Assembly: GCF_000526675.1 (NCBI RefSeq)
Contig: NZ_JAGN01000010.1
Location: forward strand, 1 to 38,118
DNA from: Atopobacter phocae ATCC BAA-285
GTDB lineage: Bacteria; Bacillota; Bacilli; Lactobacillales; Aerococcaceae
Reading direction: 5' to 3'
DNA: 38,118 bases
The first letter of the stretch is position 1. Every line of letters starts with the position of its first letter. Under the pieces are notes generated by a model. That model searched no databases. It saw nothing but the letters and a program-made list of their open reading frames with translations, and had not been told where the DNA came from. Below, in pieces: positions 2,335 to 7,970 of this stretch. A program made the translations under genes and the position numbers.

Positions 2335-5223
2335 TTAATTTAATACTTTTATTTCACTAAATAATTCCTGAGTATCTTCGATTTGTCCTTTATTACCAAT
2401 AACGACTTTTGTCCCTTGTTCAATGACCGTTTCAAAATCTTTTGCTAGTTCGTGTAATTGATCCAAAGTGGTGTTCAGCACTTCTTGTTTTAATTGCGTT
2501 GTATCTTGTGCGGTATAGCCTGTAACAAAACGACTAAACTGCAAGACACCTTTATGATAGGCTGAAATTGGACGATCCAACAAACTCATCGTTCCAATCA
2601 TTGATTTCAATAAATCTTGATTACTCAATTCTAGTGATGCGATAAACGCAGGAACACCTTCATAAGCAGTATACGTTTTATCAATGTTAGGATCGCGATA
2701 TGAGCTGAATCCTACATCACCATTCATTCGATCGATAAAGCTTGCACCATAAGCTCCGCCTCTTACACGAATCGTATTCCATAAATAATCAAAACGTAAT
2801 ATCGTTTCTAAAATTTTATGTGTTCCTGAAAACGCCACTTTATCTTTAACATTTGTAGCTAAAGCTACATAATTGACGTCTTGTGCTACAATAAAGGCTT
2901 CATCAACAGGCTGATTGATCATAATTGGCTTCGCTTCATACACTTCTCCTGCTTCCATTGTATCTACAAATGTTCTTAATACTTGCATCACTTCTTGTTG
3001 ACGAGAGTGTTCACCTACATATAAAATGGTTAATCGATTTTGCTTAATGACGCGTTCAAGAAGTTTTGCTAAACGAGTCGCTAACTCTTTTGAACCCTTT
3101 TCTTTAATCTCATCGCGAACCGTTTTTAAATAGTTATATTGATCAATTCCTTGAATTAATTCTTTTAATTTAGCGACTGATTGATGATGACTTAACGCCC
3201 GATTCATAGCTAAATGATTAGCTGAAAAATTAATTTGCAATTCAAAATGAGATAATGCACTTTGAACAACTTGCGTTATATCGGCTTGTTTTGAAAAATC
3301 TGTCTTTGTTACTATCTCTTTTATTAAATCAACTAATTGATTGAATTTTTCTTGCAAAGCCTTTCCACGAATGGCAAAAAATGGACGCAACTCGCCAGAT
3401 TTCTTTTCATACACTTCTACAAAACTAGACACTCCACCTGTATTAACGTCTAATACGGTTTGCAATTCACTTGCGGCATACGATTCGGTTCCTAATTGTG
3501 TCAGTAATTGACTTAACAAGCTCAAATCCATATATTCTTCAGGCGTCATATCACTTATATCAAAATAACAATTTAAATAATCTAATCCTGCTGTGAACTG
3601 TGGAACATGTAGCATAACACTCTTCTCAATCGACAATTGTTCAACTTCATAATCTGGTGTATTAGTTGTTAAATCTTCTTTTTTCAACATAGGAATTTTA
3701 TCTAAATCTTCTGGTCGATCAGGAGTTTCTTGACGTTGAATGAGGGCTTGAGTCTCCTCAATTAATTGATTGATTTCATCTTTAGATAGGCTTTCTTTGT
3801 ATTCTTTCAATTGTTCTAGCACCTGTTCTTCAATCCGATCATTTTTACCAGGTTCTGCAACTAAACTGAGACGTGATTTATGATTCGTATCTAACAAGCG
3901 CTCTTGAATTAAGCGTTCAAACCATCCATTATTCACACGCTCTTTGATAATTTTAAGCGAATCCGTTACTCGGAATGAATTAAATGGTGATTCATCATAT
4001 AACCAAGTGCCTAAAGAAGTAATAGCATACATCACTCCACGCGGCTCTGATTCTGATATGGCTAATTCTTTCATTCGAAAACTCATTTTATTAAAAGCAG
4101 CTTCAATTAGATCTTTATCAATACCATTTTGTACTAATCCTTCCAATGTTTCACGGACGACTGTTTCAAAACGATCAAAATATTTCGATTGCGTCTCTTT
4201 TAATGTAATCGAAAACACTGTAGGAAAGCCATAATTACCTGCTCCACCATATACATCTTCAGCGATGTTTTCTTTAATTAACTCTTGTTTCAGTGGTGAT
4301 TGATTATTTCCTAATAATATTTCACTTAACATATCAAATGCTAATTCTAAGTGTGGCTCGGATGCTGTTCCTACGTGATAAGATAATGTTAAATAATCTT
4401 TTCCAGTTGGGTCTTCACCAGCAGTTATAGAATAAGTACTTTCTAAATCATTTGCTAAAGCTGAAGTTGCTTCAAATCGTAAATCAACTGACTCTGCTAA
4501 GCGATCATATGCATCAAAGTATTCACCAATTTGATTAAATACGACCTCATCGTTAAAATCGCCATATACAACTGTAAATGAATTAGATGGATGATAATAT
4601 TTTTGATGAAAGGCAACAAATTCTTCTTGTGTTAATGAAGGGATTGCAGCCGGTGTTCCACCTGATTCAAAAGCATAGATGGATCCTTCATATAATGTAT
4701 TAGGGATTAAACGTGAAGTGAGCGCTTCTGGTGAAGCTAATGCTCCTTTCATTTCGTTGTATACTACCCCTTTATAAATTAGCGGACTATTTTCATCTTC
4801 TAAATGATAGTGCCATCCTTCTTGTGCTAATATTAATGGATTGGTTAACATATTCGGTTGAAAAACAGCATCCAAATATACATGCATTAAGTTCATAAAA
4901 TCTTTTTGATTAGTTGAAGCAACTGGATAAATTGTTTTATCACTAAACGTCATCGCATTAACAAAAGTATTCAATGAGCCTTTTATTAACTCAACAAATG
5001 GTTCTTTTGATGGAAATTTTTTAGAGCCATTTAATACTGAATGTTCTAAAATATGTGCAATTCCATTATCGTTATACGGTGGTGTTTTAAATCCAATTGT
5101 AAAAGCTTTGTTTGAATCATCATTTTTTAAAAGTAATACTTTTGCTCCAGTTTTCTCATGAACATATAAATGTCCTTCTGATTGAATATCAGGTAAATTT
5201 TCTTTTGTAATTAATTGAAACAA
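2335..5223 (-). CDS. M16C family zinc metallopeptidase (insulinase/presequence protease type)
   Basis: This 962-residue protein has the size and architecture of M16C peptidases such as PreP, which close around short unfolded peptides and cut them. The inverted zinc motif HxxEH is in AHILEHSVLNG (His57, Glu60, His61), and the distal zinc ligand fits Glu157 in VVYNEMKGA. The C-terminal half has the substrate-grip signature VRGGAYGASF. No signal peptide is present, suggesting intracellular peptide clearance. The start is TTG (5223-5221) with a strong GGAGG seven bases away. It sits 14 bases after DUF1275 and 17 bases before the papain-fold-like gene, so all are probably one transcript. Confidence 0.85.
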   Translation of the reverse strand: MFQLITKENLPDIQSEGHLYVHEKTGAKVLLLKNDDSNKAFTIGFKTPPYNDNGIAHILEHSVLNGSKKFPSKEPFVELIKGSLNTFVNAMTFSDKTIYPVASTNQKDFMNLMHVYLDAVFQPNMLTNPLILAQEGWHYHLEDENSPLIYKGVVYNEMKGALASPEALTSRLIPNTLYEGSIYAFESGGTPAAIPSLTQEEFVAFHQKYYHPSNSFTVVYGDFNDEVVFNQIGEYFDAYDRLAESVDLRFEATSALANDLESTYSITAGEDPTGKDYLTLSYHVGTASEPHLELAFDMLSEILLGNNQSPLKQELIKENIAEDVYGGAGNYGFPTVFSITLKETQSKYFDRFETVVRETLEGLVQNGIDKDLIEAAFNKMSFRMKELAISESEPRGVMYAITSLGTWLYDESPFNSFRVTDSLKIIKERVNNGWFERLIQERLLDTNHKSRLSLVAEPGKNDRIEEQVLEQLKEYKESLSKDEINQLIEETQALIQRQETPDRPEDLDKIPMLKKEDLTTNTPDYEVEQLSIEKSVMLHVPQFTAGLDYLNCYFDISDMTPEEYMDLSLLSQLLTQLGTESYAASELQTVLDVNTGGVSSFVEVYEKKSGELRPFFAIRGKALQEKFNQLVDLIKEIVTKTDFSKQADITQVVQSALSHFELQINFSANHLAMNRALSHHQSVAKLKELIQGIDQYNYLKTVRDEIKEKGSKELATRLAKLLERVIKQNRLTILYVGEHSRQQEVMQVLRTFVDTMEAGEVYEAKPIMINQPVDEAFIVAQDVNYVALATNVKDKVAFSGTHKILETILRFDYLWNTIRVRGGAYGASFIDRMNGDVGFSSYRDPNIDKTYTAYEGVPAFIASLELSNQDLLKSMIGTMSLLDRPISAYHKGVLQFSRFVTGYTAQDTTQLKQEVLNTTLDQLHELAKDFETVIEQGTKVVIGNKGQIEDTQELFSEIKVLN

Positions 5224-5237
5224 TATAATTCCTCCTA

Positions 5238-5942
5238 TTATTTAGTGTTTTTTTTGGGTGTTTCTTCTAAAAATAAAATTAATGCAATTAAGCAAGTTAA
5301 AGCAAATGGAAATAAAATGGCCCATTTACCAATCATATGGACTAAATACGTACAAAATGATGCACCACTTATAAAAATTGCAATGATTAAAAAGTACAGT
5401 CCAGCACTAGATAAATCATATAAAGAATGAGTCACTCTAAAATTGAAAAAGTTAATCACTCCTAATCGCAAGTTACCAGTTTGCATAGTCGACATAAAAT
5501 TACGACCTTTTAAACGAGTAATGGTTTGCAATTGCATCGCGCAAACAAATGATACAATCAAGTTCGCAATAAAATCCATTTCACCTAGTGGTATCCAGCC
5601 AATTACTAATAGTAATCCTGCATTAATTAATAATAATATTTGCTGTTCATTAATACGAATCGACCGTCGCATACGTAATTTAGCAAAAAAGTGCTTAATT
5701 TCTAATCCCACATAAGTGCCAATCATAAAAGCAAATATGGGCCAAACGTATCTTAACGCCTCATGATAATCTAAATCAAATATGTGAATACTTAATAACA
5801 AAATATTTCCTGTTTGTGCAAACGCAAATACTCCACCCCTTGTGGTGTAAGTATAAGCATCTAACCCGCCACCAATTAATGCGAGCAAACCACCAATTAT
5901 TAAAGATTCTGATAGTTTAGGTTCTATCAGTTTTCGATACAT
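5238..5942 (-). CDS. YoaK/DUF1275 family membrane protein
   Basis: This 234-residue integral membrane protein has about six hydrophobic segments and the family signatures GGLDAYTY near residue 25, FAQTGN near residue 41 and the second MQTGNLR near residue 153. DUF1275 (YoaK) proteins are common in bacteria, but their transport role, if any, is not established. The ATG follows the rpoN stop by one base, and its Shine-Dalgarno (AAGGAGGAA) is made of the last rpoN codons, so the two genes are translationally coupled. The M16C peptidase gene starts 14 bases after its stop. Confidence 0.85.
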   Translation of the reverse strand: MYRKLIEPKLSESLIIGGLLALIGGGLDAYTYTTRGGVFAFAQTGNILLLSIHIFDLDYHEALRYVWPIFAFMIGTYVGLEIKHFFAKLRMRRSIRINEQQILLLINAGLLLVIGWIPLGEMDFIANLIVSFVCAMQLQTITRLKGRNFMSTMQTGNLRLGVINFFNFRVTHSLYDLSSAGLYFLIIAIFISGASFCTYLVHMIGKWAILFPFALTCLIALILFLEETPKKNTK

Positions 5943-5943
5943 T

Positions 5944-7071
5944 TTATTCCTCCTTGAGACTAGTTGATATTAAATATCTTAAAGGAATAATCCCACGATC
6001 TGACATAACCGCATGATTCATTACGATACGATTAACTGTTGAAAGTCTTAATTCAGTTTCATTAGCAATATCGCGCAAATACAATGGTGCTAATTCATCA
6101 CTTTGTTGCATTAAATACTTAAACTGGCTTCTCGCAATGGCATCACTAACTTGTACAATCATGCGTTGACGTTTTTTCAATCCTTCAATTAACAACATAG
6201 CATCTTCTTTTTGCTGTTTAACATATTCGATAACTTCTTCATCTTGTGACTGAATAAGCTCATCATAGTATACTTCATCCAGATGCACATTCGGAATATA
6301 ACGATCTAAGTAACGAACAATCAGTTTATCATCTTGACGTTTAATCGATACTGCAGGCGATAAAATAACTTCATCTGAATGCTCAAATTGTTGTCCTGGC
6401 GTCGGGTCTAATTGACGAATATAAGCAGATACTTTTTCATAATCATCATCACTCATTGCTAATTCGCTTTGAATAGTTTCTTTATCATTGGCTACGAAGG
6501 CATCGTAGTAGTGATGTAAAATGTCATAAGCACCTATTGGAGCCTCATTATCATTTAAAGCTTGCAATTCTAAACATTCTTGTAAATCACGTGCACCAAT
6601 TCCTGCTGGATCTAATAACTGAATGAGTGTCAGTGCATCTAATACCTCAATAGCACTTGCCCCAGTGCGACGTTCAACATCTTCTAACGGCATTCTAAAA
6701 TAACCATCTCGATCAATATAGTCAATCATATATAATACTAAGTCTCTTAAAAAAGTTTCACGCATATACAAATCGACTTGATTTAGTAAATGACTAATTA
6801 AAGTCTGACTACTTTCATCTTCACTAATTTGCTCAGATAAAATAGAATGGTCTTCTTCTTCAGATAACGGTGTATCTGGAATTGACTCAGCATCTAAACT
6901 AATCCCACTATCTTGCCATTCTACTTGGATAAGAGGATTATCTGTTGATTTCAACTGGATAAATTGTCTTAATTCATCAATTGTATAATTTAAAAGTAAT
7001 ACCGCATTTTTAACCATTTGTGATTTAGGAACGATTGCTTGCTCTGTTTTATTTCTAACTCTTAGTATCAT
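5944..7071 (-). CDS. rpoN: RNA polymerase sigma-54 factor lacking the C-terminal RpoN box
   Basis: Sigma-54 directs RNA polymerase to -24/-12 promoters and needs an AAA+ activator. The visible parts are a region I-like N-terminus (SQMVKNAVLLLNYTIDEL), an acidic linker, and the core-binding domain with LIQLLDPAGIGARDLQECL and DPTPGQQF. A weakened helix-turn-helix region follows (LYLRDIANETELRLSTVNR). The protein then stops at YLISTSLKEE. The conserved RpoN box (ARRTVAKYR in normal members), which reads the -24 element, and the roughly 60 residues around it are absent. The length is 375 residues against about 430 or more for the family. I chose the ATG at 7071 because AGAGAGGTGG precedes it; the upstream in-frame GTG is inside that site. 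A TATAAT lies at 7093-7098. It may be decaying or altered in role. Confidence 0.8.
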   Translation of the reverse strand: MILRVRNKTEQAIVPKSQMVKNAVLLLNYTIDELRQFIQLKSTDNPLIQVEWQDSGISLDAESIPDTPLSEEEDHSILSEQISEDESSQTLISHLLNQVDLYMRETFLRDLVLYMIDYIDRDGYFRMPLEDVERRTGASAIEVLDALTLIQLLDPAGIGARDLQECLELQALNDNEAPIGAYDILHHYYDAFVANDKETIQSELAMSDDDYEKVSAYIRQLDPTPGQQFEHSDEVILSPAVSIKRQDDKLIVRYLDRYIPNVHLDEVYYDELIQSQDEEVIEYVKQQKEDAMLLIEGLKKRQRMIVQVSDAIARSQFKYLMQQSDELAPLYLRDIANETELRLSTVNRIVMNHAVMSDRGIIPLRYLISTSLKEE

Positions 7072-7196
7072 TTTATATTCCACCTCTCTTAAATTATAAA
7101 GTAAAAATTATTAATGTTACTTTCAGCAATTTCGGTTGATTTTATTCAACATTTAACAGTTAACAATTAGCATTGATACAATTAATGCCGTTTATT

Positions 7197-7970
7197 TTAA
7201 CTACTTAAATAATTAAGTTTCAAATCTTCAGCAATTTGTATTAATTGATCTGTAGAAAAAACTTGACTCAATCGAAAACCAATATAATAAGCACTTGTAA
7301 CAAATCGTGGGACTACTTTAAATTGATAGTATTCGTCAATTTTCCACCCAAAAATATTATAACTTGGATGGCTCGGATCGCGATAGCCTACTGCGAAACG
7401 AACAAGTCCCATTAAGTCATTGGTCCAGCTATTAATAGCCGCATCTTGATGAACTCTTAAATTTAATTCGATATACCCACAAATTGGTTGCGTCGATACC
7501 GTAATGAATAATTGATCCGTTTCTTTCACTACAATCCCTTCAAAGTCACTCGGCATATATAACGAACCAACGTCTTCTTTGAATCCCAACAATTGAAGAT
7601 GTGGATGATTTAAACTTGAACCAGAATGAATACCTTGATTCTTTAAAAATACGGTTTGCAGATTTGAAGGCCATTCATCAAATTGACGCCAACAAGACAT
7701 AATGAATTTAAATAATTGATTTAATTCACACGATTCAGCCTCATACATTCTAAAATCATGTGCATCTGATTCAATAATAACTGTTTGATTCACTTCTTTT
7801 ATTGTAGGATATTTGTTGTTCACCCATAATCTCGACCCGTCTTCTTTGATTAAGTTCTCCATATCGGTATACGAACAAAACGGACATGAACTTTCTCCTA
7901 CTACATCGTTAGGTTTCTTCGACGATATCATCGGGTCAAATGTCAACATTACTTTTTTTAAATCTGACAT
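7197..7970 (-). CDS. DUF4931 (GalT/HIT-like) protein
   Basis: This 257-residue protein fits DUF4931, a Firmicute family related to galactose-1-phosphate uridylyltransferase and HIT hydrolases. A CPFC pair near residue 29 looks like half of a zinc site, and SSLNHPHLQLLG near residue 120 gives the HxHxQ nucleotide-phosphate motif expected to provide the catalytic histidine. The true substrate is unknown; transfer or hydrolysis of a nucleotide-sugar or dinucleotide is family-level inference. The ATG follows AAGGAG, and a perfect palindrome (7982-7997) abuts that site. Nothing like a terminator separates it from rpoN, so read-through into rpoN is possible. Confidence 0.7.
   Translation of the reverse strand: MSDLKKVMLTFDPMISSKKPNDVVGESSCPFCSYTDMENLIKEDGSRLWVNNKYPTIKEVNQTVIIESDAHDFRMYEAESCELNQLFKFIMSCWRQFDEWPSNLQTVFLKNQGIHSGSSLNHPHLQLLGFKEDVGSLYMPSDFEGIVVKETDQLFITVSTQPICGYIELNLRVHQDAAINSWTNDLMGLVRFAVGYRDPSHPSYNIFGWKIDEYYQFKVVPRFVTSAYYIGFRLSQVFSTDQLIQIAEDLKLNYLSS

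Follow-up and report, generated by a model that had tools for sequence, protein, structure and literature searches.

Sigma-54 is usually seen as an all-or-nothing factor, which either reads −24/−12 promoters while awaiting an activator or is lost. One account assigns inhibition of the polymerase and reception of the activator to Region I and the major share of polymerase binding to the core-binding domain, with the helix-turn-helix (HTH) acting at −12 and the RpoN domain reading −24 (PMC7057263). In Neisseria, rpoN genes are reported without the HTH, the RpoN box or both (PMC6755734; PMC12316311), and in N. meningitidis no GAFTGA activator was identified and no RpoN protein detected (PMC6755734).

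The short rpoN product of Atopobacter phocae described here shares with sigma-54/RpoN (TIGR02395; PF04963 and PF04552) the core-binding domain, the long helix and, in altered form, the HTH, as judged from both sequence and structural model; it differs in lacking the RpoN box, in the degenerate start of its Region I and in scoring under the equivalog cut-off. The Neisseria rpoN-like sequence (RLS), or meningococcal atypical RpoN, is likewise an rpoN without DNA-binding parts. However, the Neisseria alleles are reported as frameshifted, truncated or internally deleted, whereas the Atopobacter cut is common to two species and occurs beside an intact RpoN2 and an activator (PMC6755734). The Neisseria form looks like a relic, while the forms in this family are conserved and recurrent, and in Atopobacter and the genus g5 they stand beside an intact sigma-54. 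As in the laboratory Region I-deleted (bypass) sigma-54, Region I function is apparently gone from the short protein; the laboratory form is without Region I only and would thus keep the RpoN box, in contrast to the natural short form (PMC4551910). Rhodobacter sphaeroides, like A. phocae, carries more than one sigma-54 gene per genome, although its copies are described as having distinct transcriptional roles, whereas one A. phocae copy is without a −24 reader (PMC12316311). Among the titles and opening lines of abstracts surveyed in openly available journal papers, there was no account of such a box-less sigma-54 besides that of Neisseria.

The short rpoN gene and its product

The window, a 38,118-nucleotide stretch of the A. 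phocae genome (1.67 Mb, a draft in 82 contigs), carries on its minus strand an rpoN paralogue without an RpoN box (5944..7071), encoding 375 amino acids from an ATG at 7071 or 379 from a GTG at 7083. The ribosome-binding site AGAGAGGTGG (7080..7089, minus strand) lies 8 bases ahead of the ATG, and the program-called GTG start falls within this site. The gene closes with a TAA at 5946-5944, which does not lie at a contig edge. The clean junction described in the first-pass annotation is borne out: AAGGAGG (5949..5955, minus strand), inside the last codons of the short rpoN, is the ribosome-binding site of a DUF1275 gene (5238..5942, minus strand), whose ATG at 5942 lies one base past the stop. 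A peptidase gene (2335..5223, minus strand), which we take to be of the M16C type from the look of its sequence, follows, and a DUF4931 gene (7197..7970, minus strand) lies upstream.

The sole other genome of the genus compared, Atopobacter sp. AH10, encodes an ortholog of 372 amino acids that ends at the same place as the A. phocae protein; there the peptidase gene comes directly after the short rpoN, with no DUF1275 gene between them. The short gene is a shortened paralogue of rpoN and not a sequencing slip, as the first-pass annotation had judged, and the persistence of a shortened form, which it had also envisaged, is supported by two genomes whose proteins are 48% identical. Bavariicoccus seileri DSM 19936 encodes an rpoN of 446 amino acids with an intact box in the same gene order, rpoN-DUF1275-peptidase; on the side occupied by DUF4931 in A. 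phocae it carries a divergent sigma-54 activator gene. The two short forms group with the B. seileri protein in a quick tree of 95 rows (SH-aLRT 99). A careful tree, built from 54 of those rows on core-domain columns only, pairs A. phocae with AH10 (100/99) and again joins this pair to B. seileri (100/99). Because the short forms cluster with this full-length rpoN, loss of the box most likely took place within the Atopobacter lineage, once it had separated from Bavariicoccus.

The core-binding domain of the short protein (6268..6816, minus strand) matches PF04963 at 145 bits over profile positions 7-185 of 185, whereas the match to the DNA-binding family PF04552 covers only positions 2-94 of 160; the RpoN box is therefore absent, in agreement with the first-pass annotation. 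A scan of the A. phocae assembly with the DNA-binding family at E<=1 returned two strong matches, the short rpoN (profile 2-99) and the intact RpoN2 (1-159), together with three weak hits scoring 9.4 to 15.4 bits. A split sigma factor with its box in a separate gene was rejected, as no stand-alone RpoN-box gene appeared in the A. phocae assembly at E<=1. A relic of the box past the stop was likewise sought by eye in the three same-strand frames, over about 320 bases in A. phocae and 250 bases in AH10, and none was seen.

The HTH (5968..6084, minus strand; residues 334-372) departs from the usual form, as had been claimed, reading LSTVNR for ESTVSR and keeping three of the four residues (S, T, S, R) that are invariant in 57 intact rows. 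A predicted 38-residue helix (6127..6240, minus strand; residues 282-319 in the 379-residue numbering) corresponds to the extra-long helix, a name taken by comparison with PMC7057263. The first-pass annotation had regarded Region I and the core-binding domain as readable. This stands for the core-binding domain; Region I is only partly readable, and the glutamine-rich stretch with which it opens, MTQQLQQS in relatives, is degenerate. Glutamines 13, 15, 25 and 31 of the reference sequence (L005) correspond to T, Q, N and N in A. phocae, where one of four is kept, and to S, E, D and N in AH10, where none is. The protein scores 262.7 bits against the NCBIfam equivalog TIGR02395, below its cut-off of 277.35.

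An AlphaFold model of the short protein, built on a three-row alignment (mean pLDDT 68, pTM 0.59), is confident over most of the core-binding part, the helix 282-319 and the HTH, and not over the first 28 residues. When the model was compared with the PDB, the first 32 matches were sigma-54 chains or sigma-54 core-binding domains, 31 of them at E<=0.001, mostly from polymerase complexes. Global TM-scores of these 31 matches were low (0.29-0.42 by query length), as expected since domain placement in the model is uncertain.

Intact sigma-54 of the same genome and conservation between two species

The first-pass annotation had proposed that sigma-54 control may be on its way out in this organism, and had called for a search for a second rpoN, for AAA+ activators and for −24/−12 promoters. 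An intact second rpoN, an activator and an exact −24/−12 site are all present, and the proposal is not supported. The intact copy, RpoN2 (438 amino acids, box ARRTVAKYR), is encoded on another contig, C31, where it lies divergently to what we take to be a mannose-type PTS operon; an activator gene of 851 amino acids follows that operon. The activator, which we take to be LevR-like, contains GAFTGA, and no other protein of the A. phocae genome matches the activator family at E<=1e-20. Two weaker matches to the activator family (36 and 33 bits) are presumably Clp-type AAA+ proteins.

Exact matches to the −24/−12 sequence TGGCACNNNNNTTGCW occur twice in the A. phocae genome, and one of them begins 48 bases ahead of the first PTS start codon. 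The other (C4:27408) was rejected as a promoter, lying antisense within a gene that we interpret as encoding a phage portal. When up to one mismatch was allowed, 45 sites were found against 40 for the reversed control, which is background, and no weight is therefore given to any but the exact site, seen in its context. A corresponding site in AH10 lies on the PTS strand before the likely PTS start (L034 6832-6817), inside an over-long program-called open reading frame. In both Atopobacter genomes (L032 8807-15517 and L034 1519-8223) RpoN2 lies divergently to a mannose-PTS operon that has an activator and a −24/−12 site of its own. Identity between the two is only 40% for RpoN2, yet it reaches 79-87% for PTS subunits B, C and D. 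Phage-like genes also occur on contig C4 of A. phocae (L126 1906-3730), which we take to encode portal-like and ClpP-like head protease proteins.

Between A. phocae and AH10, identity amounts to 48% for the short protein, 46% for the peptidase, 40% for RpoN2, 57% for the activator and 53-87% across the PTS subunits. By domain, the short pair is identical at 92 of 183 positions in the core-binding domain, 27 of 42 (64%) in the HTH and 20 of 47 in Region I; the corresponding counts for the RpoN2 pair are 56 of 181, 22 of 45 and 28 of 47. The core-binding domain is thus more alike in the short pair than in the RpoN2 pair (p=0.0002), although the RpoN2 genes are fast-evolving and hence a lenient yardstick, the peptidase being the fairer one. 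Within the short pair, the HTH is not significantly more identical than the core-binding domain (p=0.12), and its net charge is +1 versus an intact median of 0. At 29 core-domain positions conserved to at least 90% in the 57 intact rows, the A. phocae short protein keeps 28 residues and the AH10 protein 23. Only two sequences carry the exact form found in the window, and with a dS of 2.4 this pair is saturated at synonymous sites, so that omega was judged on related forms only.

Box-defective forms across the family

The survey covered 76 family genomes, 50 of which contain the core-binding domain, and three kinds of protein without a normal box were recognised: the A. phocae/AH10 pair, a truncated form in the genus g5 (g5-short) and a changed-box class (the 430 class). 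The first-pass annotation had recommended looking for the truncation in relatives; within Atopobacter the cut is identical, and beyond it B. seileri is full-length in the same gene order.

The g5-short form (L036 7557-8651 and ten sisters, L039-L048) is present in 11 of 13 genomes of g5, a genus that we guess to be Trichococcus; the two genomes from which it is absent have a completeness of 63% and 51%. The protein has 364 amino acids in nine cases, 366 in one and 380, from an earlier start, in one, and it ends past the HTH. One or more intact rpoN copies occur elsewhere in all 11 of these genomes. All 11 loci place g5-short between clpP and cggR-gapA. This is the rpoN position in other families of the order, where 22 of 27 short-flanked loci show cggR and/or clpP, and the g5-short gene occupies the ancestral clpP-rpoN-cggR-gapA locus.

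The 430 class comprises proteins of 415-457 amino acids in 25 genomes of 11 genera (L109 4450-5748 and 24 more: L051, L088, L092, L099, L101, L103-L107, L110-L116, L118-L123 and L125). Its box is changed from ISRRTVAKYR to roughly IISEQLVANYR, and its Region I glutamines are gone (kept fractions, in L005 numbering throughout: Q13 0.16, Q15 0, Q31 0). Losses in the box fall on R418 (0), R419 (0.24) and K423 (0), with Y424 (0.92) and R425 (0.96) kept, and those in the HTH on S340 (0.32), T341 (0), S343 (0.12) and R344 (0.20). The 29 conserved core-domain positions are mostly retained, 19 of them at 0.96-1.0 and 7 at 0.76-0.92; the remaining 3, at 0.04-0.28, are L142 (0.20), Q146 (0.28) and R156 (0.04), the last belonging to the conserved GAR motif. 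At the four loci read (L051, L103, L105, L109), the gene faces a small lipoprotein-like gene in every case and follows an upstream cardiolipin-synthase-like gene in two.

All 25 rows of the 430 class form one group in the quick tree, and in the careful tree, which includes 14 of them, these have three intact copies as their sister group (99/89); the placement of g5-short has weak support. A single truncation common to the A. phocae pair and g5-short was considered and is disfavoured by an AU test on core-domain columns with the two Atopobacter sequences and four of the 11 g5-short sequences (p=0.0198), a weak result because the grouping was defined post hoc, with the sequences already known, and because long branches are involved. 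The full-length B. seileri sister points in the same direction. Trees and gene order together indicate that a similar change probably occurred at least twice more in the family.

Activators were set against sigma-54 forms in lists compiled by hand for the 76 genomes. An activator at E<=1e-20 is present in all 26 genomes with an intact RpoN, in one of the 24 with a defective form only, and in none of the 26 without the core-binding domain. The 24 defective-only genomes are all of the 430 class, and 23 of them are without an activator; this class therefore lives mostly where no possible activator was found. The one exception (G031) has a sigma-54 activator (398-aa open frame) at G031:C48:15416-15913 in a genome with the changed-box form only, and an intact rpoN may be absent from its draft assembly. 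Two control families elsewhere in the taxonomic class (f24 and f48) also have short sigma-54 frames, yet the RpoN box is kept at 12 of 12 loci read and an activator is present in 17 of 17 genomes searched, and short length alone was accordingly rejected as a marker of box loss. Their sigma-54 proteins (L131-L142) are very divergent, with longest open reading frames of 380-461 amino acids, most near 380-405, and weak core-binding-domain scores.

The ratio dN/dS (omega) is low in the related forms. Median omega for g5-short is 0.099, with a maximum of 0.152 (10 of 11 sequences, 45 pairs). Of two sets of intact g5 paralogues, one (7 sequences, 21 pairs) gave 0.092 and the other, with 7 of 8 sequences and 20 of their 21 pairs, gave 0.081. 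Set medians for the 430 class are 0.037-0.126, obtained from 14 of its 25 sequences in 10 pairs within genera, several of which have dS >1, and intact copies of other families gave a median of 0.097 (5 sequences, 10 pairs) and, for one pair, 0.023. The HTH of g5-short is looser than its core-binding domain (0.226 versus 0.087), which fits lost DNA reading or drift. HTH set medians in the 430 class are 0.012-0.051 in the five of six sets where they were computable, which fits a function kept but changed. Net charge is lower in all three defective kinds (medians −28.5, −38 and −28 versus −12), an effect due in part to the absence or alteration of the basic C-terminus; HTH charge does not differ between intact and changed-box rows (p=0.8).

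Possible roles of the short protein

Our preferred reading, held with about as much doubt as belief, is that the short sigma-54 acts as a core-polymerase-binding regulator without −24 reading. Its core-binding domain and long helix would still allow the protein to hold core RNA polymerase. Lacking the RpoN box, it would be unable to anchor at −24, and with the degenerate start of its Region I it would be unlikely to respond to an activator. It may thus serve as a decoy or damper vying with RpoN2 or other sigma factors, and not as a promoter-specific sigma. Since an intact second rpoN exists, the first-pass annotation would have had this gene set aside as a duplicate. That description says too little about it, given that related forms show conservation and low dN/dS and are also found in other genera. 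Relatives seem to have formed and kept similar short copies independently, which suggests a role apart from −24 reading. No intact sigma-54 was found in the 24 genomes with a defective form only, and a pure anti-sigma-54 role therefore cannot explain the whole set; for the 430 class, the loss of R156 from the GAR motif counts against core binding.

The main rival, which we regard as unlikely, is an activator-independent sigma that brings polymerase to DNA through its altered HTH, perhaps at a −12-like element and with a partner protein. Sigma-54 without Region I transcribes activator-free in vitro, but such bypass transcription is rare in vivo in E. coli, as the same report states (PMC4551910). 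The HTH of the short pair keeps S, T and R, is identical at 27 of 42 positions and carries a charge of +1, so DNA reading may persist in the Atopobacter lineage, and the low HTH omega of the changed-box class (0.012 to 0.051) would agree with the rival reading. Most HTH invariants are, however, gone in g5-short and the changed-box class, and the defective forms are more acidic than intact ones, an argument tempered by their missing or changed basic C-terminus and by an HTH charge that is unchanged. A reuse of the domain set for a task without RNA polymerase appears improbable. The charge of the A. phocae core-binding domain, −21 versus an intact median of −12 (range −26 to −6), would suit it, whereas the retention of 28 of 29 conserved core-domain positions and the nearest structures of the model, sigma-54 chains nearly all in polymerase complexes, argue against it.

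We consider it just as improbable that the short gene is a decaying relic in which the box was lost first and the rest is drifting. Neisseria, with rpoN genes lacking the HTH and/or the RpoN box, provides a precedent (PMC6755734), and the degenerate Region I and the looser g5-short HTH are of the kind that decay would leave. Neither relaxed selection nor a broken frame, as in decaying Neisseria-type rpoN, was seen in Atopobacter: the open frame, the start behind its ribosome-binding site and the cut are all kept in two species at 48% identity, with a core-binding domain better conserved than that of intact RpoN2. The A. phocae genome has one activator and an intact RpoN2, where a Neisseria-type relic would have neither, and omega is low in g5-short and, with several high dS values, in the changed-box class. 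An error of sequencing or assembly, or a split gene with its box elsewhere, might be imagined in a draft of 82 contigs. This is very improbable and is contradicted by the identical cut in AH10, by the A. phocae assembly, where a scan at E<=1 found no separate gene for the box, and by the downstream same-strand frames, in which no box was seen.

Beyond the preferred reading of the short protein as a core-polymerase-binding regulator, a wider proposal can be put forward tentatively: sigma-54 may have been converted at least three times independently in one Lactobacillales family, keeping its core-polymerase-binding part and shedding −24 reading and activator response. The products could form a new class of core-RNAP-binding regulators or, in the case of the changed-box class, a naturally occurring sigma-54 that needs no activator and has an altered promoter specificity. 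The family holds conserved natural forms that are without the residues for activator response and −24 reading while most core-domain residues are kept, and some of these forms live in genomes where neither an activator nor another sigma-54 was found.
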